Below, one piece after another: positions 6,879 to 60,555 of a DNA stretch of 64,000 bases. The notes beneath the pieces were generated by a model that was not told where the DNA came from, did not search any database, and was given only the letters and a program-made list of their open reading frames with translations. This stretch comes from Haloterrigena alkaliphila (GTDB lineage: Archaea; Halobacteriota; Halobacteria; Halobacteriales; Natrialbaceae), in the NCBI RefSeq assembly GCF_017352155.2, contig NZ_CP071462.1, positions 1,240,001-1,304,000 on the forward strand, written 5' to 3'. Numbering within the stretch: position 1 is the first letter of the stretch; every line of letters begins with the position of its first letter. The translations under genes and the position numbers were made by a program.

Positions 6879-7361
6879 TCACAACTCGAGCGTGTAGACG
6901 ACCTCCTGACGCTCCTCGCCGCCGATTTCGACGGTGCCTTCGCCGGTCTGCTCGAACCCCTGTTCCTCGTAGAACCGCTGGCCGCCCTCGTTCGAGGCGA
7001 GGTCCATCGCCCGCATGCGGTCCATGTTGAAGTCCTGCAGGTCCGTACAGAGCCGCTCGTGTAGCGCCGTCCCGATTCCCTGGTCCTGATGGTCGGGGTG
7101 GACGGCCATCCGCAGGACGTCGCCTTCATCCCCGGAGACGACGCCGTGGGTGAAACCGACGATCACCTCGTCCTCCTCCGCGACCAGAAACGCCGTCCCG
7201 GGTTCCGACAGCGCTCGCTCGAGCGTCTCGTCGCCGTACCAGTCGTCGACGGTCTCGTCGATCGTCTCGGCCTCGAGTTCGTCGTATGTGTCGTGCCACG
7301 CATCTCGAGCGACGCGTCTGATGGCCTCGCGGTCGTCCGTGGTGGCTGGTCGGATCTCCAT
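6879..7361 (-). CDS. GNAT family N-acetyltransferase
   Basis: The product has 160 residues from ATG 7361, the first Met giving a GNAT N-terminus (MEIRPATTDD); the open frame runs further upstream through the tandem repeats, which is not coding. GNAT motif A is seen as VHPDHQDQGIGTALHERL (Q/RxxGxG/A acetyl-CoA loop) and motif B as NEGGQRFYEEQGFEQTGEG. It is closely related to the gene at 7769-8248: both share AWHDTYDELE/TWHDTYDELD near the N-terminus and the C-terminal VYTLEL, so they are duplicates. The substrate cannot be told. The 3 x 28 bp repeat begins 22 bases upstream of the start, so it must overlap or adjoin its promoter. Confidence 0.9.
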   Translation of the reverse strand: MEIRPATTDDREAIRRVARDAWHDTYDELEAETIDETVDDWYGDETLERALSEPGTAFLVAEEDEVIVGFTHGVVSGDEGDVLRMAVHPDHQDQGIGTALHERLCTDLQDFNMDRMRAMDLASNEGGQRFYEEQGFEQTGEGTVEIGGEERQEVVYTLEL

Positions 7362-7382
7362 ACCGCGCGCTACACCGGCGAT

Positions 7383-7466
7383 CGACAAAGTGGTATCACC
7401 CCGTGGGGGTCGACAAAGTGGTATCACCCCGTGGGGGTCGACAAAGTGGTATCACCCCGTGGGGGT
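7383..7466 (+). repeat. Perfect tandem repeat, three copies of 28 bp
   Basis: Three exact 28-bp units run from 7383 to 7466. Each contains AAAGTGGTATCACC followed by a near-palindrome CACCCC-GT-GGGGGT. The core AAAGTGGTATC occurs a fourth time at about 7525. The array lies directly upstream of the start of the GNAT gene on the minus strand, in the position of a promoter and operator region. It could be a regulator-binding array or simple slippage expansion. Confidence 0.9.
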
Positions 7467-7768: not shown

Positions 7769-8248
7769 CTATAGCTCGAGGGTGTAGACCGCTTCGTCGT
7801 AGTACTCGCCGTCGATTTCGACCTCCCCGGTGTCGGTCTGCTCGAAGCCCAGTCCCTCGTAGAACCGGCGGCTGGCGTCGTTGAACGCGAAGTCGAACGA
7901 GCGGAGTCGGTCGGCGTCGTAGGCCTCGAGTCGGTCGACCAGCCGTTCGTGGAGGTCGGCCCCGATCCCCTCGCCCTGCGCGTCGGGTGCGACGTACATC
8001 CGGAGGATGTCGGCCGTCTCGCCCTGCGCGACCGCGTGGGTGAAGCCGACGATCTCGCCGTCGTCCCTTTCCACGACGAGGACGACCGTCCCGGGCGCCT
8101 CGAGCGGCATCGAGTCGTCGGTGTACCAGTTGTCGACGGTCCGGTCGATCAGGGCGTCGTCGAGTTCGTCGTAGGTGTCGTGCCAGGTCTCGCGAGCGAC
8201 CGCCTTGATGGCCGCGAAATCGTCGGCGTCCGCCGATCGAATGTGCAT
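7769..8248 (-). CDS. GNAT family N-acetyltransferase (paralogue of 6879-7361)
   Basis: The product has 159 residues and starts MHIRSADADD. The acetyl-CoA loop is seen in APDAQGEGIGADLHERLVDR, and motif B in NDASRRFYEGLGFEQT. The N-terminal WHDTYDELD and C-terminal VYTLEL blocks match the neighbouring GNAT protein, so this is a duplicate that has diverged by roughly half of its positions. Both genes are on the minus strand and separated by repeat-rich DNA, so they are probably separate transcripts. The acceptor substrate is unknown. Confidence 0.9.
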   Translation of the reverse strand: MHIRSADADDFAAIKAVARETWHDTYDELDDALIDRTVDNWYTDDSMPLEAPGTVVLVVERDDGEIVGFTHAVAQGETADILRMYVAPDAQGEGIGADLHERLVDRLEAYDADRLRSFDFAFNDASRRFYEGLGFEQTDTGEVEIDGEYYDEAVYTLEL

Positions 8249-17622: not shown

Positions 17623-20164
<2,542 letters not shown>

Positions 20165-20195: not shown

Positions 20196-21602
20196 TCACT
20201 GCCAGACGTCGCTCGTGCAGTCGCCGTCGGGCCACCGGATCTCGTGGGCGCGGGCCGGACCCTCGGGACACTCGCCCCAGTCGACGAGGAAGTCCTCGTC
20301 GAGTTCCATCGTCCCCTTCCGGGGGTCGACGTCGGCTTTCAGCATCACCGAACCGCGCTCGCCCTCCTCGGGGTAGAACTGCTCGTCCCACGAGGAGAAC
20401 AGCGAGGTGGTCCAGTAGAGTCGCTCGCCGTCGAGTGAGAGCTGGACCATCTGGGGGCCGGCGGCCAACTCGCGGCCCTGGACCTCCTGTATCTCGCCGA
20501 AGGTGCCGCCGACGGACAGCGAGTCGGCCCGTCGCGGGTTCGACGGGTCCGAGACGTCGTACATCCAGACCTCGCCGTGGAGCCAGTTCGAGCCGAAGAG
20601 GTAGCGGTCGTCCATCGAGATCAGGATGTCCGTCGGCAGCGCGGGGACCGGCATGTCCCAGTCGTCGTGTTCCCGGCTCTCGAAGTCGATTACCTTCTCG
20701 GCGCGGTACTCTCCTGCGTCATCATCCCGCCAGAAGTGGAATACGTTCGACGACAGCGCGGCGCCGACGAACCCGTGGGTCGATTCGGGCGTGTGGAGGA
20801 ATCGGACCTCGAGGGGAATCAACCCCTCCTCGCCGAGGTCGATCGTCTGCTCGACGGTGCCGTCCTCCCAGTCCCAGAAGTGGAGTCGCTGGCCGTAGTT
20901 ACCCGCCTCGACGTCCTCGAGGTCGAACCCGGGGTAGTACGTCTTGGGGGCGGCCCACTCGCTCGAGACCATCACGTTCTGCCGGGGCTGGTACCAGTAG
21001 TCGTAGTTCATCTCGATCTCGCCCGGCGGCTCCCAGCGGCCCTCGATCTCGAAGTCGTCGTTCAGTTCGAGGAAGCCGCCCGGAAGCTCGCCGTCGGCGT
21101 CCCCGAGCATGCTGATCAGGATCTTCCCGTCCGGGATGCAGTGGACGGTGTGCGGTGCCGAGAGGTCGTGCTCGAAGACTTCCTCGGGTTCGATCACCGT
21201 CTCGAGTTCGGGATTCCGCCGGTCCGCCGCGTCGATCACGTGGATCCGGGAGGAGCGCTGGCCCGGGACGATCAGGTGTCGCCGCTCGAGGCCCTCCATA
21301 TGGCAGGACGAGGAGCAGGCGTTCCACCCGAAGTGGTGGAGTTCGTCTCCCCGGTTCGGCAGTTCGATACGGTCGACGATCTCGCAGTAGGTGTCCGAGT
21401 CGGGATCGAGGTCGACGACCGAGACGAAGTCCGGCGCGTCGACGTCGGTGCCGACGTAGAGGCTCATCACGTAGGCCAGTTTCTCCCGTTCGCTCTCCTC
21501 GATGGCGGCCTGGGGCGTCGCGTAGCCCGGTCCCTCGTGATCGTGGTGGTGTTCGTGGTCGTGCTCCGGTTCGACGCCCTCTGGTGTGCTAACGTCACTC
21601 AT
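20196..21602 (-). CDS. Selenium-binding protein 56 / methanethiol oxidase family
   Basis: The start ATG 21602 (MSDVSTPEGVEPEHDHEHHH) is chosen because the sequence upstream in the same frame is Pro/Arg-rich and non-coding. The product has 468 residues, the normal size of SBP56. The family features are a metal/selenium-site motif CSSSCH in GWNACSSSCHMEGLERRHL, SAPHTVHCIPDGKILISMLG, and HLFGSNWLHGEVWMYDVSDP-type blades of a seven-bladed propeller. An unusual His-rich N-terminal tail (HDHEHHHDHEG) may bind a metal. Family members (human SELENBP1, Hyphomicrobium MtoX) oxidise methanethiol to formaldehyde, hydrogen sulfide and peroxide using copper. Ferredoxin genes lie on both sides. Confidence 0.93.
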   Translation of the reverse strand: MSDVSTPEGVEPEHDHEHHHDHEGPGYATPQAAIEESEREKLAYVMSLYVGTDVDAPDFVSVVDLDPDSDTYCEIVDRIELPNRGDELHHFGWNACSSSCHMEGLERRHLIVPGQRSSRIHVIDAADRRNPELETVIEPEEVFEHDLSAPHTVHCIPDGKILISMLGDADGELPGGFLELNDDFEIEGRWEPPGEIEMNYDYWYQPRQNVMVSSEWAAPKTYYPGFDLEDVEAGNYGQRLHFWDWEDGTVEQTIDLGEEGLIPLEVRFLHTPESTHGFVGAALSSNVFHFWRDDDAGEYRAEKVIDFESREHDDWDMPVPALPTDILISMDDRYLFGSNWLHGEVWMYDVSDPSNPRRADSLSVGGTFGEIQEVQGRELAAGPQMVQLSLDGERLYWTTSLFSSWDEQFYPEEGERGSVMLKADVDPRKGTMELDEDFLVDWGECPEGPARAHEIRWPDGDCTSDVWQ

Positions 21603-21673
21603 GGGATACCCGACCACGAACACGTAGATAAGTCTGGTCGGGGGTCGTCTCGGGACGGGAACGGGCGCGGGAG

Positions 21674-22060
21674 CTACGCCCACGGACTGTCTCCGACTTC
21701 CGAGCGGACCCGCGGCCCGACCTCGAGGCGACAATCGACTCGCGGCTGTGCGATACAGAGCAGAACGTAGCCGTCGGCCCGCTCGCGGTCCGTGAGCGCG
21801 GCCGGCGACCGCCGGTACGTGAACGCGTCCGCGGGATCGGCGGTACGGGCCGCGCCATCTGCGTCAGCGTCGACGTCCGTGTCCGCGCCCTCGATCTCGA
21901 TCAACCGACCGACGCAGGTGATACAGGTCCCCTTTCGGCAGTCGTACGGTAGCCGAACGCCGGCCCGCCCAGCCGCCTCGAGGACGGTCTCGTCGTCGGT
22001 GACCTCGATCGTTCGGTTCGGACCGTCGGTCCGCTCGAGGGTCACGTCGTGGCTCGTCAT
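21674..22060 (-). CDS. 2Fe-2S ferredoxin (second paralogue)
   Basis: The product has 128 residues. Cluster ligands are CRKGTCITC and the distal Cys in YVLLCIAQP. The N-terminal MTSHDVTLERTDGPNRTIEV and the TVLEAAGRAG segment match the ferredoxin at 19787-20164 closely, so the two are duplicates placed on either side of the selenium-binding protein gene. An acidic loop (DTDVDADADG) sits after the cluster. It is the first gene of the putative three-gene unit and starts 164 bases from the divergent rio1 gene. Confidence 0.93.
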   Translation of the reverse strand: MTSHDVTLERTDGPNRTIEVTDDETVLEAAGRAGVRLPYDCRKGTCITCVGRLIEIEGADTDVDADADGAARTADPADAFTYRRSPAALTDRERADGYVLLCIAQPRVDCRLEVGPRVRSEVGDSPWA

Positions 22061-31354: not shown

Positions 31355-32167
31355 TCACTCGCTGCCAAGCCGCCGCGGAATCGACCCCGTCATCGGAAGT
31401 TCCTTGCAGTAGTAGGCCACCGGGTCGCCGGTCGGTTCCGGCAGGTCGTTGACCGCGAACATGGTGTTCTCGTTGATCGTCACGGTCGCTTGCTGGAGCG
31501 GCCACGGATCGTGCGAGATTTCGCCGGCCAGGACGCCGCGCGCTTCGGCGGCGTAAAACCGGCGCCGCTCGGAGAGCCAGTAGGCTAGCGTGCCCGGTTC
31601 GGCCGTGAAGGGCTCCCCGTCGGAACGATACGTCGCGTCGAAGCGGGCCGTCGGCGGATCGTCGGCGAACTGTGGTCGCGCGCCGGCGGCGGTCTGGCCT
31701 CGCGTGCTCCTGAACGCGACCTCCCCGCCTTCGGCGCTGACTCGCATGTGGGCGTGATAGACCGGCAACCGGGTCGTCCGGCCGAGAGTCGCGGCGACGA
31801 GGGGGCTCCCCACGTCGATACTGAAGAAGAATAGACCGGGGTCGCCGCGATACCGGACGTACGTCCGAACGTTGAGTTCGGGGAAGGCCGTTCTGGTGAT
31901 CGACGGTGCGCCGCGGATACCGACGTCCGCGAGCACGAACGGGATCACGGAGAGCCACGCCTCGCCGTCCCGGGTCTCGAGCGTCAGTTCGTCGGGAACG
32001 TGGGGGCGGAGTTCGTCGGGATCGACGGGCCAGTGGACGAAGAGACCGTCGCGCCACGTCATCGAGGCGACGTGCGGGGCGGTCGGCGACGATCCGTCGG
32101 CGAACGTCCAGCGGAAGGGATCCGTTCGTGTCCGCTGTCGTACTCGTCGTTCGTTCAATTTCGTCAT
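31355..32167 (-). CDS. DUF2071 (YqjF) family protein
   Basis: The product has 270 residues from ATG 32167 (MTKLNERRVRQRTRTDPFRW). Features of the YqjF/DUF2071 family are MTWRDGLFVHWPVDPDELRP near the N-terminus, AWLSVIPFVL, ELNVRTYVRYRGDPGLFFFS and GTLAYWLSERRRFYA. Members are predicted acetoacetate decarboxylase-like fold proteins whose role is not established. No signal or membrane segment is present. An alternative start 90 bases upstream gives a poor N-terminus. It is on the same strand as the sugar porter, 87 bases away. Confidence 0.88.
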   Translation of the reverse strand: MTKLNERRVRQRTRTDPFRWTFADGSSPTAPHVASMTWRDGLFVHWPVDPDELRPHVPDELTLETRDGEAWLSVIPFVLADVGIRGAPSITRTAFPELNVRTYVRYRGDPGLFFFSIDVGSPLVAATLGRTTRLPVYHAHMRVSAEGGEVAFRSTRGQTAAGARPQFADDPPTARFDATYRSDGEPFTAEPGTLAYWLSERRRFYAAEARGVLAGEISHDPWPLQQATVTINENTMFAVNDLPEPTGDPVAYYCKELPMTGSIPRRLGSE

Positions 32168-32329
32168 CCTCGAGAGCCAGCGCGAGGGCTGTTCGCGACG
32201 ATATGTCGACCAGAGGCATAAAAGAAACAGTTGAGTGTCAATATCGATGGTAGTCACACATCGCGAAACGGACGGTCGAATCGCCCAGTCGGGAGGTCGA
32301 AAGAGGAGTCGATCGATCGCGCCGGCGCC

Positions 32330-33106
32330 TCAGTCGGCCGCCACGTCCGGGTCGGGATCGCTACCGGACGGCTCGGCGAACGTCACCTCGTCGCCGGTGT
32401 CGCCGTCGTCGGATGCGCCGCCCGATTCCTCGGTGACGAGCTGTTCCACGGCGTCGGTCGCCTGGAGGAGCAACAGCCCGAAGCCGATCCGGGTGGCGAT
32501 GTCGAGGTAGGCACCGATGAAGATGCCGCCGAACGCGTCGAGGAGTCCGACCCCCTGCCGCGAGATGACCCCGATGACGAGGTAGGCGACCCAGAGCAGG
32601 ATGAGCAGGTTCCGGAGCTTTCCGTAGAGGAGTACCCGCTCACCGGTGGTCCGGCCGGACTGTTTCGTCACCGGCTGGACCATCACGTAGAGGAGTGCCG
32701 CGAGGACGACGACCGTGCCCAGGGTCGCGGCGAGCACGGCCGTCCCCGTGAGGAAGTATCGGACGAGACTGAGTCCGATCCACGCCTCCGTCAGGACGAC
32801 GAGAGCGGCCAACTGGCGTCGGTTCGCGCCCGCGACCTTCCCTGCCACGAGGATCATGATCGTCGTCGCGACGAAGTAATCGACGTACCGGGTCATCGGC
32901 AGCGGTTGCCCGGTCGGCGTCGTCACGCGGAGCAACTCGATCGACATCCCGAAGTACGCGAGCGAGAGCGTCCCGCAGACGATCGGGGCCGGCAGATAGT
33001 ACCGGCGCGTCCCTGCCGGTTTACTGGCGACCCAGCCGACGAACGCCAGCGTCGCCACCGCCGTCACGTAGAAGGCGAGACGGTACATCTCGAGTTCGGG
33101 AATCAT
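32330..33106 (-). CDS. Microbial-rhodopsin homologue lacking the retinal-binding lysine
   Basis: The product has 258 residues and seven hydrophobic helices plus an acidic C-terminal tail. Helix C has RYVDYFVATTIMI, matching the R-Y-x-D of sensory rhodopsins and bacteriorhodopsin (Arg82 and Asp85 equivalents, R73 and D76). Helix F has LRNLLILLWVAYLVIG with the Trp182 and Tyr185 equivalents. Helix G has AYLDIATRIGFGLLLL, where the Asp212 equivalent is D202 but the Schiff-base Lys position is R206 (codon CGG). A Lys codon would need at least two changes, so a single-base error is excluded. The gene overlaps the transducer gene upstream (ATGA), as in htr-sop operons. It cannot hold retinal through the normal linkage; its signal is unknown. 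Confidence 0.9.
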   Translation of the reverse strand: MIPELEMYRLAFYVTAVATLAFVGWVASKPAGTRRYYLPAPIVCGTLSLAYFGMSIELLRVTTPTGQPLPMTRYVDYFVATTIMILVAGKVAGANRRQLAALVVLTEAWIGLSLVRYFLTGTAVLAATLGTVVVLAALLYVMVQPVTKQSGRTTGERVLLYGKLRNLLILLWVAYLVIGVISRQGVGLLDAFGGIFIGAYLDIATRIGFGLLLLQATDAVEQLVTEESGGASDDGDTGDEVTFAEPSGSDPDPDVAAD

Positions 33107-35361
33107 CGGCTCTCACCTCCGGTTTCCGCGGCGGGCGCCCGTGGTCGCTCGGATCCCGACTCGCCCGAGACGCTGAACTCGTCGACGGCGTCGGCCAGGT
33201 CCGTCGCCCGTTGGTCGAGTCGCGTCGCCTCCGCGGAGACGTCGGTGATCGTCGCGGTGGTCTCCTCGGCGGCCGCCGCAACCTGCTGGGACTGCGAGGT
33301 CGTCTCGTTGGCGACGCTGGCGACGTCCTGGATGATCGTCGCGAGTTCCTCGGCGGACTCGGCCTGCTCGTCCGTCGCCTGGTCGATCTGGGTGACCCCG
33401 GTGGCGACCTGCTCGATCTCGCCGGCGATCCGGTCGAGTTTGGTCGCGAGGGAGTCGACCCGATGGGTAGCCGAGCCGATCCGCTCCTCGGTTTCCTCGA
33501 TCCCCGCTGCGCTCTCCGTCGCCCGCTGCTGTATCGATTCGATCATGGCTTCGACGTCGTCGACTGCCGCCTGCGTCTGCTCCGCCAGTTCCTTGACCTC
33601 GTCGGCGACGGCCTGGAAGCCGCCGTCCTCGCTCGAGGCGCTCTTGGACCGGGCCGACTCGATCGCCGCGTTCAGCGCCAGCATGTTCGTCTGCTCGGCG
33701 ATCTCGTCGATCAGCTCGACGATCTCCTGAATCTGTTCGGCCTCGCGCTCGAGTTCGTGGATCGTCTCGGCGACGGTTTCCGTCTGGTCGGCGGCGGTGT
33801 GCATCTCCTCGGTGGTCTCCTCCGCGGCCGCCTGGCCGGCCGTCGCGAGTTCGTCGACCTGCCCGGACTGGTCGGCGATCGTACTCGTCGCGGCGGCGAC
33901 CTCCTCGACGGTCGTCGACATCTCCTTGACTTCCCGCGTCGCCGTCTCCAGGTCCTCGGCCTGCTCCGCGGACCCGTCGGAAATCTCCTGAATCGACGCG
34001 CTGACCTCCTCACTGGCGCGGCTGATCTCCTCAGAACTGGTCTGGAACTCGGTGCTCGTCTGCGCGACGTCCCGCGAGATGTCCTTGACCTGCGTGACCG
34101 CCGACTCCAGATCGGCGATCATCTCGTTGAACGCCTCGGCGATGGCGGCCATCGCCTCGTGGTCGGTCTGCGGGTCGAGGCGCTTCTGGAGGTCGCCGTC
34201 GGCGCAGTCGGCCATCACCGCGCCGAACCGCTCGGCCTCGGCCTCGAGTTCGCGGTTGCGCTGCTCGGTGCGGCGCTGGGCCTCGCGTGCGCGCTCGCGT
34301 TCGTCCTCGAGATCGCTCAGCGTCGTCCGGAGGTCGTCGCGCATCGTTCCGAAGGAGTCGTAGAGGCTCCCGACCTCGTCGACGCGGTCCGTCTCGAGGT
34401 CGACCTCGAGATCGCCGTCACCCATCTGTTCGGCCTTGTCCGCGAGTCGGCGGAGTTTCAGCGAGAGGTTCCCGCCGAGGACGATGCCGACGAATCCGAG
34501 GTTGACGATGAAGACGAACACCACCGTCGCGATGCCGGCCGTCGCGACGTTCTGTGCCGCGAAGACGTCGTCCGCGGCGCCGTAGGTCGTGACCCGCATC
34601 GTCGCTTCGCCGCTGCCGATCGTCGCCGTCGTCGCGGCGACTTCCTGCTCGCTTCCGTCGGGCGTCACCCTCGCGACCTCCGACGCGTCGTCACCCAGCG
34701 CGCCGAGCACGGCCTCGTCGGTCGCGTCGACCTCGGCGTCGCCGACGCCGACGATCTGCTCGCCGTCGGCACCGGTGACGACGGTTCGATAGTCGTCACT
34801 CGTCTCGAGGGCCGACGCGAAGGCGCCGACCGGCGCCGAGAGGGCGACGTAGCGGTCCTCGCCGGGAACGCTCGAGACGAACGAGAGTACCTCGTCGTCG
34901 GTCGCGAGCGCCTCGTGGGGCGTCGTTGGACCGTCGGTCGCCCCCTCGACGCCGGCGGCGTCGAAGAAGTTCTGGCCGGTCGCCGCCTCGTCGCTGCTCG
35001 CGAGTACCTCGCCGTCGGCGCCGAGGTAGTGGAGCTCGGCGACGCGATCGCCGCGAGTATCCTGCGCGGTGGCGAGTCGATCGCCGATCGCATCGGGATC
35101 GCCGTCGCGGACGGTCGCGTCCGCGGACAGCCCCGCGGCCGTCTCCGCGTTCGTCTCGAGCCACGTCTCCGCGACGTCGCTGCGGTCGTCGGTCCGGTCG
35201 CTGAAGTGGTCCGCCGCCGTCGGACCGACCGCACCGGAAACGTGCGCGAAGAAGACCGCCGAGACGACCAGCGTCACCAGGGCGATCGCGACGAATATGA
35301 GACCGATCTTTACACTGTACGATTGCCTGAACCGATCGGGGATGTAGTCCTCGAGTGCCAT
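33103..35361 (-). CDS. Htr-like methyl-accepting transducer protein
   Basis: The product has 752 residues from ATG 35361 (MALEDYIPDRFRQSYSVKIG). TM1 lies around residues 18-35, a roughly 230-residue extracellular sensor domain follows (with WLETNAETAAGLSADATV and YRTVVTGADGEQIVGVG), and TM2 is around residues 268-292. HAMP domains follow (LRRLADKAEQMGDGDLEVDL; ERFGAVMADCADGDLQKRL), then the coiled-coil signalling domain with the tip EQTNMLALNAAIESARS. This is the HtrII-like arrangement with a large ectodomain. The opsin gene starts within its stop codon, the same order as htrII-sopII. It would pass the signal to CheA/CheW. TATA-like and inverted-repeat sequences lie upstream. Confidence 0.94.
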   Translation of the reverse strand: MALEDYIPDRFRQSYSVKIGLIFVAIALVTLVVSAVFFAHVSGAVGPTAADHFSDRTDDRSDVAETWLETNAETAAGLSADATVRDGDPDAIGDRLATAQDTRGDRVAELHYLGADGEVLASSDEAATGQNFFDAAGVEGATDGPTTPHEALATDDEVLSFVSSVPGEDRYVALSAPVGAFASALETSDDYRTVVTGADGEQIVGVGDAEVDATDEAVLGALGDDASEVARVTPDGSEQEVAATTATIGSGEATMRVTTYGAADDVFAAQNVATAGIATVVFVFIVNLGFVGIVLGGNLSLKLRRLADKAEQMGDGDLEVDLETDRVDEVGSLYDSFGTMRDDLRTTLSDLEDERERAREAQRRTEQRNRELEAEAERFGAVMADCADGDLQKRLDPQTDHEAMAAIAEAFNEMIADLESAVTQVKDISRDVAQTSTEFQTSSEEISRASEEVSASIQEISDGSAEQAEDLETATREVKEMSTTVEEVAAATSTIADQSGQVDELATAGQAAAEETTEEMHTAADQTETVAETIHELEREAEQIQEIVELIDEIAEQTNMLALNAAIESARSKSASSEDGGFQAVADEVKELAEQTQAAVDDVEAMIESIQQRATESAAGIEETEERIGSATHRVDSLATKLDRIAGEIEQVATGVTQIDQATDEQAESAEELATIIQDVASVANETTSQSQQVAAAAEETTATITDVSAEATRLDQRATDLADAVDEFSVSGESGSERPRAPAAETGGESR

Positions 35362-35714: not shown

Positions 35715-38414
35715 TCAGTCCTCGATCTCGATCGCCGGTCGACCGGGTGCGGCGTTTTTCAGGACGGCGTCGGGGGCCTCCTCGGCGGCGACGACGGTCA
35801 CCGGCGCCTCGAACTCGCGTTCGATCAGCCACGCGGCGGCCTCGAGCGCCTCGTACTCCGCCTCGGGGGACAGCGTCATCGACAGCGCCTCCCGTTCGGC
35901 CTGCAGGTCCTGCCCGTAGTCGGCCGCGGCGTCGCCCTGCTCGCGGATGTGGCTCTCCTGCATGAGTTCGCCGATCAGGTTGTCGGCGTCGCTCTCGATC
36001 GCGATCCCGAGGGCGTCGTACTTCCACTCGGGGGCGACGACGACGTCGATCGCCTGCGGGTCCTCGATGCCGGCCACCTCGACGATGTCGCGGACGTCCT
36101 CGCGGGTGTTTTCGACCAGACGGCGGCGCTTGGCGACGTGATCGCGGTCGACCTCGGCGGTCGGCCACGCGGCGTCGACGACGAGGCCGTCGTTGCCCAG
36201 TTCGTCCCACAGTTCCTCGGCGAGGTGGGGTACGACCGGCGCGAGCAGGCGGACGACGGCCGACAGCCCGCGCTCGAGGGTCCCGGCGTGTGGCTCTGCG
36301 TAGTCGACGTACTGTCGCAGCGTCCGGGTCAGATCCTGGGTCTCCCGCAGCGCCCGGTTGAACGTCAGGTCGTCGTACTCGTCGGTGGCGATGGCGATCG
36401 TCGCGTCGATTTCGCTCTCGACGTAGTTGGCGATCGAATCGTCGTCGCCGGCGGGCGCGTTCGCTCGCGGCTCGTCGCCGCTCGCCTCTTCCGCGGCGCG
36501 TGGCGCCGCGCCCGCCACGAACTCCTCGACCATCTCCTTCAGCCGACCGAGGAACGCGTTCGTCGAGCGGACGCCCTCCTCTCTCCAGTCGAAGTCGCGC
36601 TCGGGCTGGGCGGCCTGCATCATGAACAGCCGCGCCGTGTCGGCCCCGTACTCCTCGACGATCCGCTGGGGCGAGACGACGTTACCCTTCGACTTGGACA
36701 TCTTCTCGCCCTCGAGCTGGACCATCCCCTGGGCGAGCAGGTTCGTGAACGGCTCGCGGTGCTCGAGGTCCTCGTGGTCGGCCAGCACCTTCGTGAAGAA
36801 CCGGGAGTACAGCAGGTGCATCACGGCGTGTTCGATGCCGCCGACGTACTGGTCGACGGGCATCCAGTCGTTGGCCTGCTCGCGGTCGAAGGGAGTCTCC
36901 TCGAGGCCCGGCGAGACGTACCGCAGGAAGTACCACGAGGAGTCGACGAAGGTGTCCATCGTGTCCGTCTCGCGGGTGGCGTCGGCGCCGCAGTCGGGAC
37001 AGGTCGTCTGCTTCCACTCCTCGGCGGCGTCCAACGGGTTTCCGGTGGTGTTGATGAACTCCGGCAGTTCGACGGGGAGGTCATCTTCGGGGACCATGAC
37101 GGGGCCACACTCGTCGCAGTGGATCACCGGAATCGGCGTTCCCCAGTAGCGCTGCCGGGAGATTCCCCAGTCGCGCAGTTGGTACTGCTTCGCTTCCTCG
37201 GCGCTTTCGATGTCTGCGGTCAGGCGCTCTCGAGCGGTCTCGCTGTCGAGCCCCGAGTAGTCGTCGGAGTCGATCAGGACGCCGTCCTCGGTGAACGCTT
37301 CGTCCTCGACGTCGGGGGCCGCGGGCTCCTCGCCGTCGTCGGGTTCGGGCGCGATGACGGGCCTGATCTCGATCCCCTTCTTCTCGGCGAAGGCGTGGTC
37401 GCGCTCGTCGTGGGCCGGCACCGCCATCAGCGCGCCGGTTCCGACGTCCGAGAGGACGAAGTCGGCGACGTAGACCGGAATCTCCTCGCCGGTCACGGGG
37501 TTCGTGGCGGTCAAACCCGTCTCGACGCCGTTGGGTTCGTCGCCGTCGGGGTCGGCCACCTCCTCGATGAAGCGGCGAACGTCGTCGTCCTGCTCCGCGA
37601 GTTCTTCGCTGATCGGGTGATCCGGCGCGAGCGCGAAGAACGTCGCGCCGTAGACGGTGTCGACGCGGGTGGTAAATGCCGTCACCGGCCCGTGATCCTC
37701 GATATCGAACTGTAGTTCGGTCCCGTACTGGCGGCCGATCCAGTTGCGCTGCATCTGCCGAACCGAGTTGGGCCACCCCTCGAGGTCGTCGATCGCGTCC
37801 AGCAACTCGTCGGCGTACTCGGTGATCTTCAGGAACCACTGCTCGAGTTCGCGCTGTTCGACGGGCGTATCGCAGCGCCAGCAGAGTTCGGCCTCGCCCT
37901 CGACCTGCTCGTCCGCGAGGACGGTCTCGCAGTGGGGACACCAGTTGACCTCGGCGTCGCGGCGCTCGACCAGCCCTTCCTCGTGGAACCGCTCGAAGAG
38001 CCACTGGTTCCACTGGTAGTACTCCGGCGTGCAGGTGGCGATCTCTCGATCCCAGTCGTAGCCGAAGCCCATCGCCTCCATCTGGTCGCGCATCGTGTCG
38101 ATGCAGTCGAACGTCCAGTCCCGCGGGTTCGTGTCGCGTTCCTTGGCCGCGTTCTCCGCGGGGAGGCCGAAGGCGTCCCACCCCATCGGGTGGAGGACTT
38201 CGTCGCCGCACATTCGTCGGAATCGGGCGTAGGCGTCCGTGATCGTGTAGTTTCGGACGTGGCCCATGTGGAGTTTGCCCGACGGATACGGGTACATGCC
38301 GAGGACGTACGTCGGGTCCTCGACGTCATCGGGCGTCCGATAGGCGTCCGCCTCGTCCCACGCCTCCTGCCAGCGCCGTTCGACCGTCGCGTGGTCGTAT
38401 CCCGCGTCGCTCAT
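35715..38414 (-). CDS. leuS: Leucyl-tRNA synthetase, bacterial type
   Basis: The product has 899 residues. The class I signatures are PSGKLHMGHVRNYTITDA (HIGH) and EKMSKSKGNVVSPQRIVE (KMSKS) near residue 570. The architecture is the bacterial one, with CP1 editing domain (TRVDTVYGATFFALAPDHP) and a zinc-like Cys set (NWCPHCETVLADEQ; CWRCDTP). Haloarchaeal LeuRS of this type is considered horizontally acquired. Residues about 636-651 (AAPRAAEEASGDEPRA) are an insertion made by the palindromic element at 36463-36509. The ATG at 38414 is only 6-12 bases from a TATATAAG stretch, so the actual promoter is probably the one near 38444-38451 (GGTATAGG). Confidence 0.97.
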   Translation of the reverse strand: MSDAGYDHATVERRWQEAWDEADAYRTPDDVEDPTYVLGMYPYPSGKLHMGHVRNYTITDAYARFRRMCGDEVLHPMGWDAFGLPAENAAKERDTNPRDWTFDCIDTMRDQMEAMGFGYDWDREIATCTPEYYQWNQWLFERFHEEGLVERRDAEVNWCPHCETVLADEQVEGEAELCWRCDTPVEQRELEQWFLKITEYADELLDAIDDLEGWPNSVRQMQRNWIGRQYGTELQFDIEDHGPVTAFTTRVDTVYGATFFALAPDHPISEELAEQDDDVRRFIEEVADPDGDEPNGVETGLTATNPVTGEEIPVYVADFVLSDVGTGALMAVPAHDERDHAFAEKKGIEIRPVIAPEPDDGEEPAAPDVEDEAFTEDGVLIDSDDYSGLDSETARERLTADIESAEEAKQYQLRDWGISRQRYWGTPIPVIHCDECGPVMVPEDDLPVELPEFINTTGNPLDAAEEWKQTTCPDCGADATRETDTMDTFVDSSWYFLRYVSPGLEETPFDREQANDWMPVDQYVGGIEHAVMHLLYSRFFTKVLADHEDLEHREPFTNLLAQGMVQLEGEKMSKSKGNVVSPQRIVEEYGADTARLFMMQAAQPERDFDWREEGVRSTNAFLGRLKEMVEEFVAGAAPRAAEEASGDEPRANAPAGDDDSIANYVESEIDATIAIATDEYDDLTFNRALRETQDLTRTLRQYVDYAEPHAGTLERGLSAVVRLLAPVVPHLAEELWDELGNDGLVVDAAWPTAEVDRDHVAKRRRLVENTREDVRDIVEVAGIEDPQAIDVVVAPEWKYDALGIAIESDADNLIGELMQESHIREQGDAAADYGQDLQAEREALSMTLSPEAEYEALEAAAWLIEREFEAPVTVVAAEEAPDAVLKNAAPGRPAIEIED
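36463..36509 (-). repeat. 47-bp palindromic element inside leuS (copy 1)
   Basis: On the coding strand it starts GCGGCGCCACGCGCCGC (stem GCGGCG/CGCCGC, loop CCACG) and contains a second stem GCGGC-GACGA-GCCGC. It is 41/47 identical to the copy in hemD at 44984-45030. The stem position 5/13 pair differs as C-G here and A-T there, keeping base pairing. It encodes AAPRAAEEASGDEPRA in the same phase as in hemD. A mobile, palindromic, in-frame element is the simplest reading. Confidence 0.85.
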
Positions 38415-54789: not shown

Positions 54790-57700
54790 CTACATGAAAT
54801 CCTCGATGCCGCTCTGCTTGTTCTTGTCGTTCTCGAAGATGCTCTCGAGTGCGCGCTCGAGCACCTCTAAGCGCTGTTTCGTGTAGGGGCGGCAGTCGTA
54901 CTCGTCGGCGACCTGAATCGCGGTCTGCATGTACTTGTTCACGGAGCCCTTGTGGACGGTGAGGTTGACGCGGCCGCCACACTCCCGGCAGTCGCCGGTC
55001 AGCGGCATCCGGCGGAACTTCTCGCCGCAGTCGAGACAGCGGGTCTCCTGCCGGGAGAACGCGCGCAGGTTCCCGATCAGGTCCGGCAGGAAGTGGTACT
55101 CGATGACCCGTTCCGCGACGTCGGTCTCGTCGACGGCCTCGAGTTTGCGCGAGAGCTCGAGCTGGGCGTCCATCTTGTCCATCATCGAGCCCAGCGTCTT
55201 GTAGGCGGAGAGGTCGGGACCCATCGCGATGTCGGTGGTGTCGTGGGTGTGCTCGAAGCCGGTGTACTCGGTGTCGGTACCGAGGGTGTCCTCGGCGATC
55301 TCGACGTCGACGTCCTCGGGGTCGGCCTGCTCGCGGGTCGCGAGGTAGAACTCGCGGGGGTACTGCGAGACGACGTCCATGTTGTGGGCCTCGTCGTCGA
55401 TCTCCGAGGGGTCGATGCGGGAGGACATGACGAGCGGGGCGTCCATCGAGTTGTGCGCATAGAGCCAGTTAGCAGTGAAGATCGGATCGCCCCCAACCTG
55501 CAGATCGTAGAGGAAGCCGTCGTAGTCGGCGCGCTCGATGGACGTGATTCGGAGGTAGGAGAGGTCACCGTCGACCAGCGGACGGATTTCCTCGAGTTTC
55601 GCTTTGGCTTCGTCCGGAAGGTCGCGCGTATCGAGTTCGTCGACGATCTCTCCGAGTTTCTCGAGCGAGATATTGTCGCGTCGTTTCAGGTACTTCGGAA
55701 CGAGCTGTTTGATCCCGTCGATATCCATCTCGCGAATCTCCATCAGTTCCTCCGGGATCGTGACGACGAGGCTCTTCGGATGGTACGAGGCCTCGCCGTC
55801 GAGGATTCGCTCAAGAGGGTTATCCGACGCACCGCCGGACACGGAGACGGTGTAGATCGGCTGTCGCGACGCGTCGCGTTCCCGTCGCGAGACGTTCGCG
55901 ACGAGACCGAGTCGATGACAGAGGAAGACGATTCCGTCTTTGACGTCTTCGCTCGTTGTGTGGAAGTTCATCCCCGTGTAATTGTCGTCGCTCGGCTCCG
56001 AACCGTCGCCAGCGATAAAGCCACGGAGGAACGCGATTGCGACATCTCGCTCGGCTCGTAGGATACAGTCGGGAATGATCTTCTCACTCGAGTTGTACGA
56101 ATCACGGTCCTCGAAGCCGAGATCGTGCAACACGTCGAAGAAGACGGCGGGGAACGCGACCTCGTACGCTTTGTTCGACCAGCGAACGCTCGGTTCACAG
56201 CCGAGCGAGGCCGTTGTCGCCTCGACGACGCGATCGACGAGTGCTTCGTCGCCGTTGTGAATCGCTGGTCGAGTTCCGGAAAGTGATCCTTCGGCGACGA
56301 ACATTCCGAGTAGCCACGCGAAGTCCTCGTCGACATCGATGGAGCGGTTGATACAGTCCGACGATCCTTTCCAGCCGACTGAACACGCGTCTGGAAGGGC
56401 GGTTTCACCATGTTCGGATTTGATTTCTTCGAGGGTCGATCGGCAGACCTTCTTTTTCGAGAGCCGGTACGAAAGTCCGCCATCGAACGCCACTCGAGTG
56501 TCGCCACCGCGTTCCGCACCGTCCCAGACGTCGATCAGCCATTCCTCGTGATCGTCGTCGAGCAGGATATACGGATCATCGACGCACTCCAGTGCGTCGA
56601 TCGTCGTCTCGACTGGGTCAACATCGAGGTTTCGAGGTGCGACGATCAGATCACCCTCGTCAAGATCCGACCCGGCGACTTCCTCGATTCCGTCGTCGTA
56701 CCGGAAGAGGCTGTGGTCGGTCGTGATCTCGAGTTCGCGCCCGAACTGCGTGGAGATACGCAGTAGTTCTTCGTCGTCGTCGGCCTCATACCGGATCGCC
56801 TTCTCGATGGGTTTCGGTGCCGCTTCGTGGTCGTCGTCGAAGGCGTAGGTCGTCCATCCCTCGAGCGCAGCCGTTTTCTTCTGGAACTTACCGTCGATTT
56901 CGATCGGTGCGTCGAGTTCGTCCCAGAACTCGTCGAAGGTCATGAACCGAAGGTTGCCGTCGGGATCGAACGCAATCAGTCGCGAGTCCTCCGCGACGCT
57001 ACCGCCGCGTTGGTCCGGAAGATACGACCGCGAGAAGTTCAAGAGTCCGTCCATGAGTAGCATCACGCAGTCCTCATCTCCATCGCATTGCGCTGTGTGT
57101 AGACCGTTCGCGACGAGTGTGTGCGTGTCCGAAACCGTGAGACAGTAGGTATACTCGACATCGGATGGGACGATTTCGGTTCGTTCTACTATATCAACCC
57201 CCGGACGACCGCCGTCCGAAATCCCCTCCGCTTGCGGACTCGAGTCGACGGTCGAGTCGGCTCGAGCCGGCGTCGGAATCTCGTCACCGGCCTCGAGTTC
57301 GCTCGCAGCGATTCGTTCGAGACCGTCGTTCCAGACGACCATCGTGTGGTCCGGAGTCACCGTCAGCGACCGACCACCGCGAGTTTCGATCTGGATGAGG
57401 TGATCGGGTGCAGGATGCTTGGAAACGGCTTCGACCGGTCGGCTCAGGCGTCGTCCGTCGTCGTCGATCGACGGAACGGTGACCGATCCCTCGAGATCCT
57501 GAACGAGCGTCCCGAAGTCGTCCTCGCGAGGATCAGTGAGCCGCGATTCGACGAACGTCTCGATCGGTTCCTCACGAGCGATTCCCGATTCGTCTTCGTA
57601 TCGAATCGTCGTTTCGGGATGGAAGCAATTCCGGCGCTTCGCGGCGTGGAAATACGGATGCGCGTAGCCAACCGCCGCGCTCGTGAACCCGATCACTCGG

Positions 57701-60555
57701 CCGACAGTTGCCGCGCTCGTGTGGGGTGCCATCCCGAAGACGAGTTCGCCGACCAGTTCCTGCCGGTCGTCGATCTCGTAGAACGGCTCGAGCCCGTAGT
57801 ACTGCTCCAACAGATCGTCGATGAAGTCGGCGGTCTGCATCATGTGCTCGGCGGCGCCGTCCGAGAGGACGATGTCCTGGATTTTCAGCTCGACCAGTTG
57901 GTCCTCGTGGGTCAGCGGTTCGCCGTGGATGTCCTCCTCGTAGCCCAGCGCCTGGAGCTGGCCGACGTCGACGTCGAGTTCGCTGGCCCGGACCGACGTC
58001 ACGGGGAGGTCCGTCATGTCGTAGCGGACGGTGCCGTCCTTGAACGAGGAGACGTCGTGTTTCGCCCGCAGGATCCCCTTCTCGATCGGTTCGGGGATCT
58101 TGTTCGTCGAGGACAGCCCCTTGACGCCTTTCAGAATGTCGAAGGCGTTCTCGCGCTCGCCGACGGACTCGAGCGCGGAGCGGAACTCGTCGTTGACGTC
58201 GATATCGCGGACCTCGACGCAGGTGCCCTCGCGGTCGCAGCGGTCGCACTCGACGCGGCCGGCTTCGTCGGGCTCGAGCGAGTCGTCGCAGTCGGGACAG
58301 CGGTAGTCGGGTTCGGTGCGGGCGTCGCAGTCGGGACAGCGGTTCTTGAACGTCTCCGTCGCGCAGTCGGGACAGCGCTTGCGGCCGACCTGCACCTCGA
58401 CGACGCCGGGCGTGTCCTGCATCGTCTCGGCGTGCGTGGCCGCGTCGGCGACGTTGCGCTGCGTGCCGCCGGCCTCGCCGATCGGGAACAGGGTGTGGAC
58501 CGCCGGGCTCAGGTCGCGGCTCTCCGATTTCTCGGGGCGGCCCATCCGGTTGCCGATCCGCGTGGGGGCGCGCTCGCGGACCCGGACGGGGGCGACCTCG
58601 TTGACCGCCTCGATGGCGTTGTCGCCCTCGGTCTCGTGGCCCCAGGTGCGGGCGCGTTCCGAGAGGTCCTCGTCGGACCACGTGCGCTCGAGTTCGACGG
58701 TCGGCTCCTCGTGGTCCTCGCCCCGGCCGTCGGAGTCGGGATCGAGCGCGGCCCCGTCGGTGACCGCCTGCCGCGGCTCGCAGCCGACCGTGCGGACGAA
58801 CGGCCGCCAGTCGTCGATCTCGATGCGGTCCGCGTCGGGTCGTTGCCGGTGTTCGATGACGATCGTCTCGAGGGCGTCGGCGACGGCGTCGTCGTGCGCG
58901 AGGACGAGGACGCTGTCGTCGCCGTTCCCGTTCACGCTGCCGTCGCCGTCGCGCTCGATCCGTCCGTCGGCGACCGCCACCGCGAGGTCGCGGAAGGCGT
59001 CGACCGAGATGTCGTGCCAGAGGTACGTGTACTCCGGATGCAGGGGCGCGTCGTACTCCAGCGCCCACTCGAGGGCCTCCTCGGGGGTGGGGAACTCGAG
59101 GTCGATCCGCGGGTCGTCCTCGAAGGCCTGCACGTCGGCGCCGGCGGCCGCGAGGTCCTGGACCCACCACTCGTAGGTGTAGGAGGCCGGCGCGAGCGGG
59201 TGGTTGTTCTCGACGAACTCGCCGTAGTTGACGAGGTACTCGCCCAGGTCGAGGATCTTCTCGACGCCGTTTCTGATCTCGAGGGCGTCCTCTGGGTCGT
59301 CGATCCGGCGGACGTCGCCGTTGGCGAGTTTGACGGTCGGCCCCTCGATGGAGTCGACGGGGACGACCCCCGCCGCCTTGCCGGGCCGCTCGGTCTTGAT
59401 CTGCGTGCCGGTCGCGAGGAAGTCGTCGACCAGATGCATCGCGGCGGGGTGGACGCCGGCGGTCGCGAACCCGTGGTTGCGCGCGCGGCCGTAACGCAGG
59501 CGGAAGCCGCCCTCCGCGCAGGGGTGGGAGAAGACGGGGCGGCCGGCGATCAGGTCGCGGAGGAACTTCTGGGACGTCTCGACGCGCGGGGGGCCGTCGG
59601 ACTCGTCGGTATCGGACTCGGCCTCGTCTCCCTCGTCCGCGCCCTCCGCGTCGCTCTCGTCGACCGCGTCGTCCTCGTCGCCCTCGTCCGTACTCTCCGC
59701 GTCGCCGACGCCGTCGTCGTAGTTGCCGTCGATCAGGTCCTGCAGCCACGGCCAGTCGATCTCGTCGAGATTGCGGGTGTAGCGCTGGATCTTCGGGGCC
59801 TTGAGCGCGATCCCCTCCGCCATGACCAGGCACATCCCGCCGCGGGCGCTGTTGGTGTCGACCCGCTCTAGGTCCCGAAAGCCCGAGACCTCCTCGTCGC
59901 CCGTGGCCTCGCCGTCCAGCATGATCGGCATGTGTTTCGCGATGAACTTCGTCTCCTTGTCCTTGGGCGTGTACTGGAGGCCGGTCTCCTTGTCGTATAG
60001 CGAAATTTCCTCGGCGTAGCGTTCGACCTCTTCCTGTCGGGCGTCGAACTGCTCGATGCCCACGAGGGCGCGGGTGTAGTCGGCGACGAGGACGGAGAGG
60101 GCCTGCGCCGTCCCGCCCGCCGAGCGGATCGGGCCGGCGTAGTAGACGTTGACGAACTCCGTCCCGTCGTCGTTGGTGAGGATCTCGACCTTGTCGATCC
60201 CCTCGATGGGCGCTGCGACGACCCCCTCGGTCAGCAGGGCGACCGCGGTCCGGACGGCGCCCTCGACCTTGCCGGCTTTCGTCTCGTAGTCGCCGACCCG
60301 GCCCTCGGCAAAATCCTCGGCGAGTTCGAGCGCGGCCTCCTCGCGGCTCATCTTCCCCTCGAGCTCGCGGACGCGCTCGGCGACGCCGTCGATGCCGAGG
60401 ATGTTCTCGACGCGGTCGGCCATGTCCTTCGCGATCGGAATCTCGACCTCCGGCTTCGGATCGGCGCCGCGTTCCTTGGCCCGTTCGGCGACCGCGAGCG
60501 CCTCGTCGAGGCCGGATTCGAGCCGCTGAAAGTACCGCGTGTCTTCCTCGCGCAT
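54790..60555 (-). CDS. polC: DNA polymerase D large subunit (DP2) with two inteins
   Basis: The precursor is 1,921 residues, much longer than DP2 in other archaea. Removing residues 977-1156 and 1186-1702 leaves a mature protein of 1,224, in the normal range. DP2 features are NVYYAGPIRSAGGTAQALSV near the N-terminus, a zinc-binding region with several CxxC (RCPDC, RCPDCDD), the catalytic-site segment CDGDEDCVMLLMDGLLNFSR, then MDAPLVMSSRIDPSEIDDEA, and a C-terminal zinc finger CLDCGEK/GDCRECGG. Intein 1 sits just before the CDGDED active site, intein 2 after LPDQRGG. An acidic linker lies near residues 285-320. The PPC gene ends 1 base before polC starts. Replicative polymerase of the cell with the small subunit elsewhere. 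Confidence 0.97.
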   Translation of the reverse strand: MREEDTRYFQRLESGLDEALAVAERAKERGADPKPEVEIPIAKDMADRVENILGIDGVAERVRELEGKMSREEAALELAEDFAEGRVGDYETKAGKVEGAVRTAVALLTEGVVAAPIEGIDKVEILTNDDGTEFVNVYYAGPIRSAGGTAQALSVLVADYTRALVGIEQFDARQEEVERYAEEISLYDKETGLQYTPKDKETKFIAKHMPIMLDGEATGDEEVSGFRDLERVDTNSARGGMCLVMAEGIALKAPKIQRYTRNLDEIDWPWLQDLIDGNYDDGVGDAESTDEGDEDDAVDESDAEGADEGDEAESDTDESDGPPRVETSQKFLRDLIAGRPVFSHPCAEGGFRLRYGRARNHGFATAGVHPAAMHLVDDFLATGTQIKTERPGKAAGVVPVDSIEGPTVKLANGDVRRIDDPEDALEIRNGVEKILDLGEYLVNYGEFVENNHPLAPASYTYEWWVQDLAAAGADVQAFEDDPRIDLEFPTPEEALEWALEYDAPLHPEYTYLWHDISVDAFRDLAVAVADGRIERDGDGSVNGNGDDSVLVLAHDDAVADALETIVIEHRQRPDADRIEIDDWRPFVRTVGCEPRQAVTDGAALDPDSDGRGEDHEEPTVELERTWSDEDLSERARTWGHETEGDNAIEAVNEVAPVRVRERAPTRIGNRMGRPEKSESRDLSPAVHTLFPIGEAGGTQRNVADAATHAETMQDTPGVVEVQVGRKRCPDCATETFKNRCPDCDARTEPDYRCPDCDDSLEPDEAGRVECDRCDREGTCVEVRDIDVNDEFRSALESVGERENAFDILKGVKGLSSTNKIPEPIEKGILRAKHDVSSFKDGTVRYDMTDLPVTSVRASELDVDVGQLQALGYEEDIHGEPLTHEDQLVELKIQDIVLSDGAAEHMMQTADFIDDLLEQYYGLEPFYEIDDRQELVGELVFGMAPHTSAATVGRVIGFTSAAVGYAHPYFHAAKRRNCFHPETTIRYEDESGIAREEPIETFVESRLTDPREDDFGTLVQDLEGSVTVPSIDDDGRRLSRPVEAVSKHPAPDHLIQIETRGGRSLTVTPDHTMVVWNDGLERIAASELEAGDEIPTPARADSTVDSSPQAEGISDGGRPGVDIVERTEIVPSDVEYTYCLTVSDTHTLVANGLHTAQCDGDEDCVMLLMDGLLNFSRSYLPDQRGGSVAEDSRLIAFDPDGNLRFMTFDEFWDELDAPIEIDGKFQKKTAALEGWTTYAFDDDHEAAPKPIEKAIRYEADDDEELLRISTQFGRELEITTDHSLFRYDDGIEEVAGSDLDEGDLIVAPRNLDVDPVETTIDALECVDDPYILLDDDHEEWLIDVWDGAERGGDTRVAFDGGLSYRLSKKKVCRSTLEEIKSEHGETALPDACSVGWKGSSDCINRSIDVDEDFAWLLGMFVAEGSLSGTRPAIHNGDEALVDRVVEATTASLGCEPSVRWSNKAYEVAFPAVFFDVLHDLGFEDRDSYNSSEKIIPDCILRAERDVAIAFLRGFIAGDGSEPSDDNYTGMNFHTTSEDVKDGIVFLCHRLGLVANVSRRERDASRQPIYTVSVSGGASDNPLERILDGEASYHPKSLVVTIPEELMEIREMDIDGIKQLVPKYLKRRDNISLEKLGEIVDELDTRDLPDEAKAKLEEIRPLVDGDLSYLRITSIERADYDGFLYDLQVGGDPIFTANWLYAHNSMDAPLVMSSRIDPSEIDDEAHNMDVVSQYPREFYLATREQADPEDVDVEIAEDTLGTDTEYTGFEHTHDTTDIAMGPDLSAYKTLGSMMDKMDAQLELSRKLEAVDETDVAERVIEYHFLPDLIGNLRAFSRQETRCLDCGEKFRRMPLTGDCRECGGRVNLTVHKGSVNKYMQTAIQVADEYDCRPYTKQRLEVLERALESIFENDKNKQSGIEDFM
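55450..57000 (-). mobile_element. Intein with LAGLIDADG homing endonuclease in PolC (517 residues)
   Basis: Residues 1186-1702 of the precursor. It begins with Ser (SVAEDSRLIAF), has block B in EITTDHSLFRYDDGIEE, the LAGLIDADG pair LLGMFVAEGSLSG and LRGFIAGDGSEPSDD, and ends with NWLYAHN followed by Ser of SMDAPLV. The first residue Ser instead of Cys is a known but rarer type. N-extein residues are LPDQRGG. The endonuclease helices keep the acidic residues, so homing ability may persist. The codon use is less GC-rich than in the extein. Confidence 0.93.
57088..57627 (-). mobile_element. Mini-intein in PolC (180 residues, ends in Gln)
   Basis: Residues 977-1156 of the precursor. It begins with Cys (CFHPETTIRYEDESGIA, block A), has block B with Thr-x2-His in LTVTPDHTMVVW and blocks F/G as YTYCLTVSDTHTLVANGLH then TAQ. 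The last residue is Gln, not the usual Asn, followed by Cys of CDGDEDC. No LAGLIDADG motifs are visible, so it appears to lack a homing endonuclease. A Gln end is known for the PolII (DP2) intein of Pyrococcus, so splicing may still occur. The N-extein junction is KRRN. Confidence 0.88.

Follow-up and report, generated by a model that had tools for sequence, protein, structure and literature searches.

An arginine-bearing, lysine-less opsin encoded with an HtrII-type transducer in Haloterrigena alkaliphila

The opsin-transducer locus

We analysed a window (the whole stretch of DNA under study, 64,000 nucleotides) of the Haloterrigena alkaliphila genome. It contains the gene for an opsin homologue without the retinal lysine, directly downstream of the gene for a methyl-accepting transducer. 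The features of the locus, in window coordinates and with "clade" denoting this opsin and its orthologues, are:

32330..33106 (-), Lys-less opsin, 258 aa, Bac_rhodopsin fold with seven helices (Pfam Bac_rhodopsin, E 5.6e-19)
33103..35361 (-), HtrII-type methyl-accepting transducer, 752 aa (Pfam HAMP and MCPsignal)
33103..33106 (-), ATGA, the 4-nt overlap of transducer stop and opsin start, kept in 17/17 relatives checked
32489..32491 (-), CGG codon of Arg206, at the retinal-lysine position (SRII K205, BR K216) by sequence and alignments
32879..32881 (-), Asp76, equivalent to the counterion D75 (SRII) or D85 (BR), Asp or Glu in 19/19 clade members
32888..32890 (-), Arg73, equivalent to R72 (SRII) or R82 (BR), invariant in the clade
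32501..32503 (-), Asp202, equivalent to D201 (SRII) or D212 (BR), likewise invariant in the clade
32519..32563 (-), FG-loop motif SRQGxGLLDAFxGxF, residues 182-196, where conservation in the opsin clade peaks
35245..35301 (-), transducer TM1, about residues 21-39, aligned with NpHtrII TM1
34576..35244 (-), transducer extracellular domain, about residues 40-262, predicted dCache fold (AF2, Foldseek, VIA-align)
34477..34533 (-), transducer TM2, about residues 277-295, including Asn287, aligned with N74 of NpHtrII
34327..34479 (-), transducer HAMP domain (Pfam)
33313..33840 (-), transducer MCP signalling domain (Pfam)
35715..38414 (-), leuS, conserved upstream neighbour and synteny marker, outside the receptor system
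31355..32257 (-), DUF2071 protein gene, conserved downstream neighbour in orthologous loci and synteny marker

The original prediction, made from the sequence, described an htr-sop arrangement in which the transducer gene precedes the opsin gene and overlaps it by ATGA. We found both genes in this order with the 4-nt overlap. Its reading of R206 (CGG) at the retinal-lysine position also held. Helix G aligned without gaps (phmmer; YLDIATRIGFG in the opsin, YLDLVTKVGFG in NpSRII), so R206 corresponds to K205 of SRII and K216 of BR. The opsin's helix G contains no lysine at any other position. An AF2 model of the opsin had a pLDDT of 82, and its best Foldseek matches were crystal structures of SRII and SRII/HtrII (TM to target 0.83-0.88). 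In this model, folded without a partner, FG-loop residues 186-191 had a pLDDT under 50. The gap-free alignment and the model with its matches rule out a shifted register, and we therefore rejected a shifted alignment or an alternative helix G lysine as an explanation. R73, D76 and D202 are kept as claimed. The helix C TTP and helix F proline are changed, also as claimed, to A80-T81-T82 and L176 (P175L in SRII numbering).

Several other genes in the window, all on the (-) strand, are worth recording. The large subunit of DNA polymerase D (1921 aa, 54790-60555) is interrupted by an intein that includes a LAGLIDADG homing endonuclease. A gene for an SBP56-type selenium-binding protein (20196-21683) lies between two similar 2Fe-2S ferredoxin genes (19787-20164 and 21674-22060). 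Two GNAT acetyltransferase genes (6879-7427 and 7769-8248) are adjacent on the same strand.

We found that the arginine is fixed among orthologues. The opsin gene is present in 18 of 392 Halobacteriales genomes, all from one family and including that of the window (53-100% identity; the next matches had 37%). All 18 genomes encode Arg at the retinal-lysine position, among them those of Haloterrigena salina, Natrinema salsiterrestre, N. ejinorense and N. gelatinilyticum. A search of 125 genomes of the family with the transducer ectodomain gave 23 strong matches (49-100% identity). In 23/23 genomes with the orthologous ectodomain, the gene immediately after the orthologous transducer encodes an Arg opsin, and this includes the five genomes that only the ectodomain search brought in. 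The order leuS-transducer-opsin-DUF2071 was kept wherever both flanks could be read (22 of the 23 loci, window included). The homologue checks suggested with the original prediction came out on its side: arginine and pairing with a transducer are constant, and no same-clade orthologue with lysine was found in any genome searched.

Among the 19 aligned clade opsins the arginine (19/19) is encoded by CGG (14), CGA (3) or CGC (2). Such constancy of the residue with differing codons goes well past what chance would give. The opsin gene is under purifying selection, with a dN/dS of 0.20-0.27 within the genus (Nei-Gojobori; larger distances are affected by saturation and G+C bias). We considered a sequencing error or a decaying pseudogene, for which nothing speaks except the missing lysine itself. 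The probability of either is negligible given orthologues that all have Arg by three codons, open reading frames, purifying selection and synteny, and we rejected this explanation.

Lys-less opsins and retinal

Lys-less opsins are a known class in haloarchaea. Becker et al. (2016) reported 48 of them ("ORPs") among 80 haloarchaeal genomes (PMC4915679). The original prediction cited only the fungal ORPs and bacterial noK proteins, and the novelty this implied does not stand: Lys-less haloarchaeal opsins with transducers, Arg included, were published in 2016, so the general idea was already in print (PMC4915679). Group A of the ORPs (16 sequences, mostly Halorubrum) has Arg, and all but one of its members adjoin a HAMP/MCP gene; R72 is lost and W76D, Y174L and W178A are present (PMC4915679). 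Group B has Leu or another hydrophobic residue at K216 (SRII K205) and Y174L, with R72 and Y51 conserved and W178G (PMC4915679).

The opsin studied here, a type 1 homologue with no lysine at K216, belongs to the ORP class; sensory rhodopsin II is defined by the retinal lysine, in whose place this opsin has Arg206. Filing it under group A for its arginine was rejected on the four other defining residues, since the clade has Tyr at W76, Tyr at Y174, Gly at W178 and Arg at R72, each in 19/19. It shares R72 (19/19), Y51 (15/19) and W178G (19/19) with group B, but has Arg (19/19) instead of a hydrophobic residue and Tyr (19/19) instead of Y174L. Judged by these residues, the clade is an Arg-bearing lineage outside both published ORP groups, of a kind known since 2016.

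We built a tree of 85 opsin sequences with the Lys column left out. All Lys-less opsins formed a single clade next to the sensory opsins (support 100/100), and the Arg clade studied here was also recovered (100/100). One side of the Lys-less clade was group A, which we recovered from whole genomes and whose residues agree with the 2016 description. The other side held the clade studied here, the His-type opsins of Halorientalis, a His opsin of Natronosalvus, the hydrophobic types and a Thr/Val pair. The best tree placed our clade with group B-like sequences and required two changes to Arg; a single Arg clade was not rejected (AU p 0.28). Arg could either go back to the common ancestor of the Lys-less opsins or have two separate origins. 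In the tree set an acid is present at position 75 or 76 in 42/42 Arg opsins versus 0/9 opsins neutral at 205, a pairing that is beyond statistical testing because it involves only 2-3 evolutionary changes.

Histidine at the retinal-lysine position, found in Halorientalis and Natronosalvus opsins (L020, L021, L025, L030, L066, L069-L072), is absent from the 2016 description. In Halorientalis the gene order is reversed, with the His opsin first and the transducer after.

Most hosts of the clade appear unable to complete retinal synthesis. The genome of the window (99.8% complete) has no second PF01036 opsin gene. Another opsin and brp/blh were both absent from 14 of the 18 clade genomes and both present in the other 4, where the additional opsins are canonical. 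This co-occurrence of brp/blh with canonical opsins gave a Fisher p of 3e-4 (18 genomes, kinship uncorrected). The two-domain lycopene cyclase crtY was restricted to the same 4/18 genomes; a distant single-domain relative was present in 18/18. Eight species with ORPs and without a canonical opsin were all reported to be without crtY and brp (PMC4915679).

The retinal pocket is also remodelled, as a further check proposed with the original prediction had anticipated. Clade opsins have W178G (19/19), W76Y (19/19) and P175L, an invariant Trp at V108, and mostly Asn, Thr or Gly at F127. With 14/18 hosts lacking another opsin, brp/blh and two-domain crtY, and with these replacements in the pocket, retinal use by the clade opsin seems unlikely, although 4/18 host genomes can make retinal. 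The same evidence weighs against the suggestion in the original prediction that retinal is bound non-covalently. We consider it very improbable that the protein is still a light sensor, through retinal held without a Schiff base or through another chromophore. The counterion triad and Y174/W171 are largely kept in the clade, and retinal could be produced in the 4/18 hosts, which would suit such a sensor. The absence of the terminal retinal genes from 14/18 hosts and the replacements at W178, W76, F127 and V108 argue against it, as does the finding that two ORPs, one from each group, formed no retinal pigment in vitro (PMC4915679).

The transducer, its contact with the opsin and its output

We found that the transducer is of the HtrII type. 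TM1 and TM2 aligned with HtrII structures (E 5e-21), N74 included, and a HAMP domain, an MCP domain and an adjacent opsin are present. The N74 position is N287 in the window transducer and His in Natrinema-type relatives. It is Asn or His in 29/29 transducers of Lys-less opsins, versus Gly or Ser in 17/19 of those of the sampled Lys opsins.

The determinants of binding and signalling between SRII and HtrII are Y199-N74, T189-E43/S62 and the T204-Y174 relay (PMC3274258). Equivalents of Y199 (19/19), T204 (17/19) and Y174 (19/19) are present in the clade. The T189 position is Asp in 19/19, the HtrII E43 position is usually His and the S62 position is Ala. With T189 changed to Asp and S62 to Ala, one of the two hydrogen bonds known from SRII-HtrII is lost in its original form, and a changed opsin-transducer contact at the T189/E43 positions is possible.

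Within the opsin clade, conservation per segment peaked at 0.88 in the FG loop, followed by 0.81 in helix F, and fell to 0.43-0.48 in helices D and E. Helix C scored 0.59, versus 0.75-0.94 in Lys sensory opsins, where it is among the best conserved segments. This pattern indicates that selection is stronger on the transducer side than on the chromophore side. It also bears on whether the opsin has any sensory role. The protein might serve only in structure or assembly, retained because the transducer's TM helices have come to depend on it, and both the perfect one-to-one linkage and the concentration of conservation on the transducer-facing side are consistent with this. We regard it as quite improbable. 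The buried network of R73, D76, D202, R206 and Y175 is kept in the clade, and a mere scaffold would hardly seem to require this much.

The transducer has a large ectodomain that we assigned by predicted structure. Naming it by Pfam was abandoned: dCache_1 had no match in the window transducer, and only a sub-threshold match in one relative (L061; 15 bits versus a cut-off of 45). The AF2 model of residues 40-262 (pLDDT 87.6) has a double-PAS fold after a long N-terminal helix. Foldseek matched it to the dCache ligand-binding domains of PctA, CtaA and KinD. VIA-align against PctA and CtaA gave Z 17.3-17.9 and rmsd 2.7-3.0 over 204-218 residues at 12-16% identity, with CtaA the best (Z 17.9, rmsd 2.8, 213 residues). 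We suggest that the ectodomain is a predicted dCache-like domain with putative ligand binding. Every clade transducer has such a domain, at about 50-75% identity to that of the window.

Not all Lys-less opsins have such a partner. In some cases (L065, L068, L091, L101, L102) the partner transducer lacks an extracellular domain between TM1 and TM2; the opsin is the likelier sensor there, and so could be the sensor in this clade too. According to this serious rival, the opsin itself senses a non-light stimulus (a small molecule, an ion, pH or membrane state) through its remodelled pocket or the conserved FG-loop motif, and the ectodomain is a second, separate input. Becker et al. proposed, from docking, that ORPs sense a non-light stimulus (PMC4915679), and the FG-loop motif, the most conserved part of the clade opsins, is common to the His-type opsins as well. 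However, the dCache-like domain is always present in the clade, part of the former pocket is in helices D and E, where conservation is lowest, contrary to expectation for a specific ligand site, and no ligand is known. On balance we consider a directly sensing opsin rather unlikely.

Components for a chemotaxis output are present. The genome has a complete Che operon in one cluster, with two CheW, CheB, CheA, two CheC, CheD and CheR, as well as archaellins. Only two MCPs scored above the Pfam cut-off in the genome, the opsin-linked transducer and one other. The CheA of this cluster (G000:C1:2440000-2455000, L151) is 1155 aa long, with a very long acidic linker from the N-terminal Hpt/P2-like part to the kinase core.

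An archaellin match was absent from 6/18 clade genomes (G200, G371, G193, G214, G024, G258), all at least 99% complete, in which the opsin, transducer and Che genes are kept. The output may therefore not be swimming alone.

A candidate retinal-free receptor and its closest known systems

Transducer and opsin form an intact, conserved pair, and the original prediction's proposal that the opsin fold serves a signal other than retinal-dependent light is the best reading. We somewhat favour a model in which the two genes encode one SRII-HtrII-type membrane receptor complex that no longer uses retinal or light and in which the opsin is an allosteric subunit. That the opsin is independent of retinal and also forms a complex with the transducer is, taken jointly, highly probable. 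Support for the complex comes from the relay residues (Y199, Y174, T204), the HtrII-like TM1 and TM2, N74, the HAMP and MCP domains, a pair that is never separated and the Che operon, and is read from sequence.

In this complex a small ligand of the dCache-like ectodomain would be the main route of stimulus. We hold the dCache domain as main input to be a little short of an even proposition. Likeness of a predicted fold does not by itself establish ligand binding. The opsin would be an obligate, retinal-free allosteric subunit that sets or modulates the state of the kinase, with its helices F and G and its FG loop packed against TM2. Arg206 would permanently take the role of the protonated Schiff base, in keeping with the acid at position 75 or 76 in all Arg opsins of the tree. 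Its salt bridges to D76 and D202 would tie helices C and G together in a dark-state-like arrangement, and the retinal-free complex would feed CheA. The pairing of other Lys-less opsins with ectodomain-less transducers is the main point against the allosteric model. More tentatively, this may be a third Lys-less lineage, with Arg as a lasting substitute for the protonated Schiff base in a largely intact SRII-like network, and one in which obligate pairing with a dCache chemoreceptor has turned a photoreceptor into an allosteric subunit.

If confirmed, the model would mean that evolution can turn a light receptor into part of a chemoreceptor without loss of its signalling contacts. What Lys-less haloarchaeal opsins do has been a question since 2016, and the clade is a clean test case: in most hosts it is the sole opsin and retinal genes are absent, there is one transducer with a predicted ligand domain, and the locus is fixed in 23 genomes.

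The best structural and sequence match for both partners is SRII/HtrII of Natronomonas pharaonis (1H2S, 5JJJ). Equivalents of Y199, Y174, T204, R72, D75 and D201, and of HtrII N74, are present here. In contrast to N. pharaonis SRII, the opsin has no retinal lysine, its retinal pocket is remodelled and T189 is Asp; about 220 residues of the transducer form an ectodomain, a part absent from NpHtrII. The haloarchaeal ORPs are similar in being Lys-less type 1 opsins, sister to the sensory rhodopsins, often beside HAMP/MCP transducers and also found in genomes without retinal genes (PMC4915679). Unlike ORP group A, the clade keeps R72, D75 (as Asp or Glu) and Y174, and in the best tree groups on the B side; unlike group B, it has Arg and keeps Y174. 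The dCache chemoreceptors PctA and CtaA of Pseudomonas resemble the transducer in the predicted fold of the ectodomain, but at 12-16% identity, and have no opsin partner. HtrII of Halobacterium salinarum is both a phototransducer and a serine chemoreceptor (PMC3274258). It is likewise an opsin-coupled transducer that senses a chemical, as we propose for the transducer described here, but its partner opsin binds retinal.
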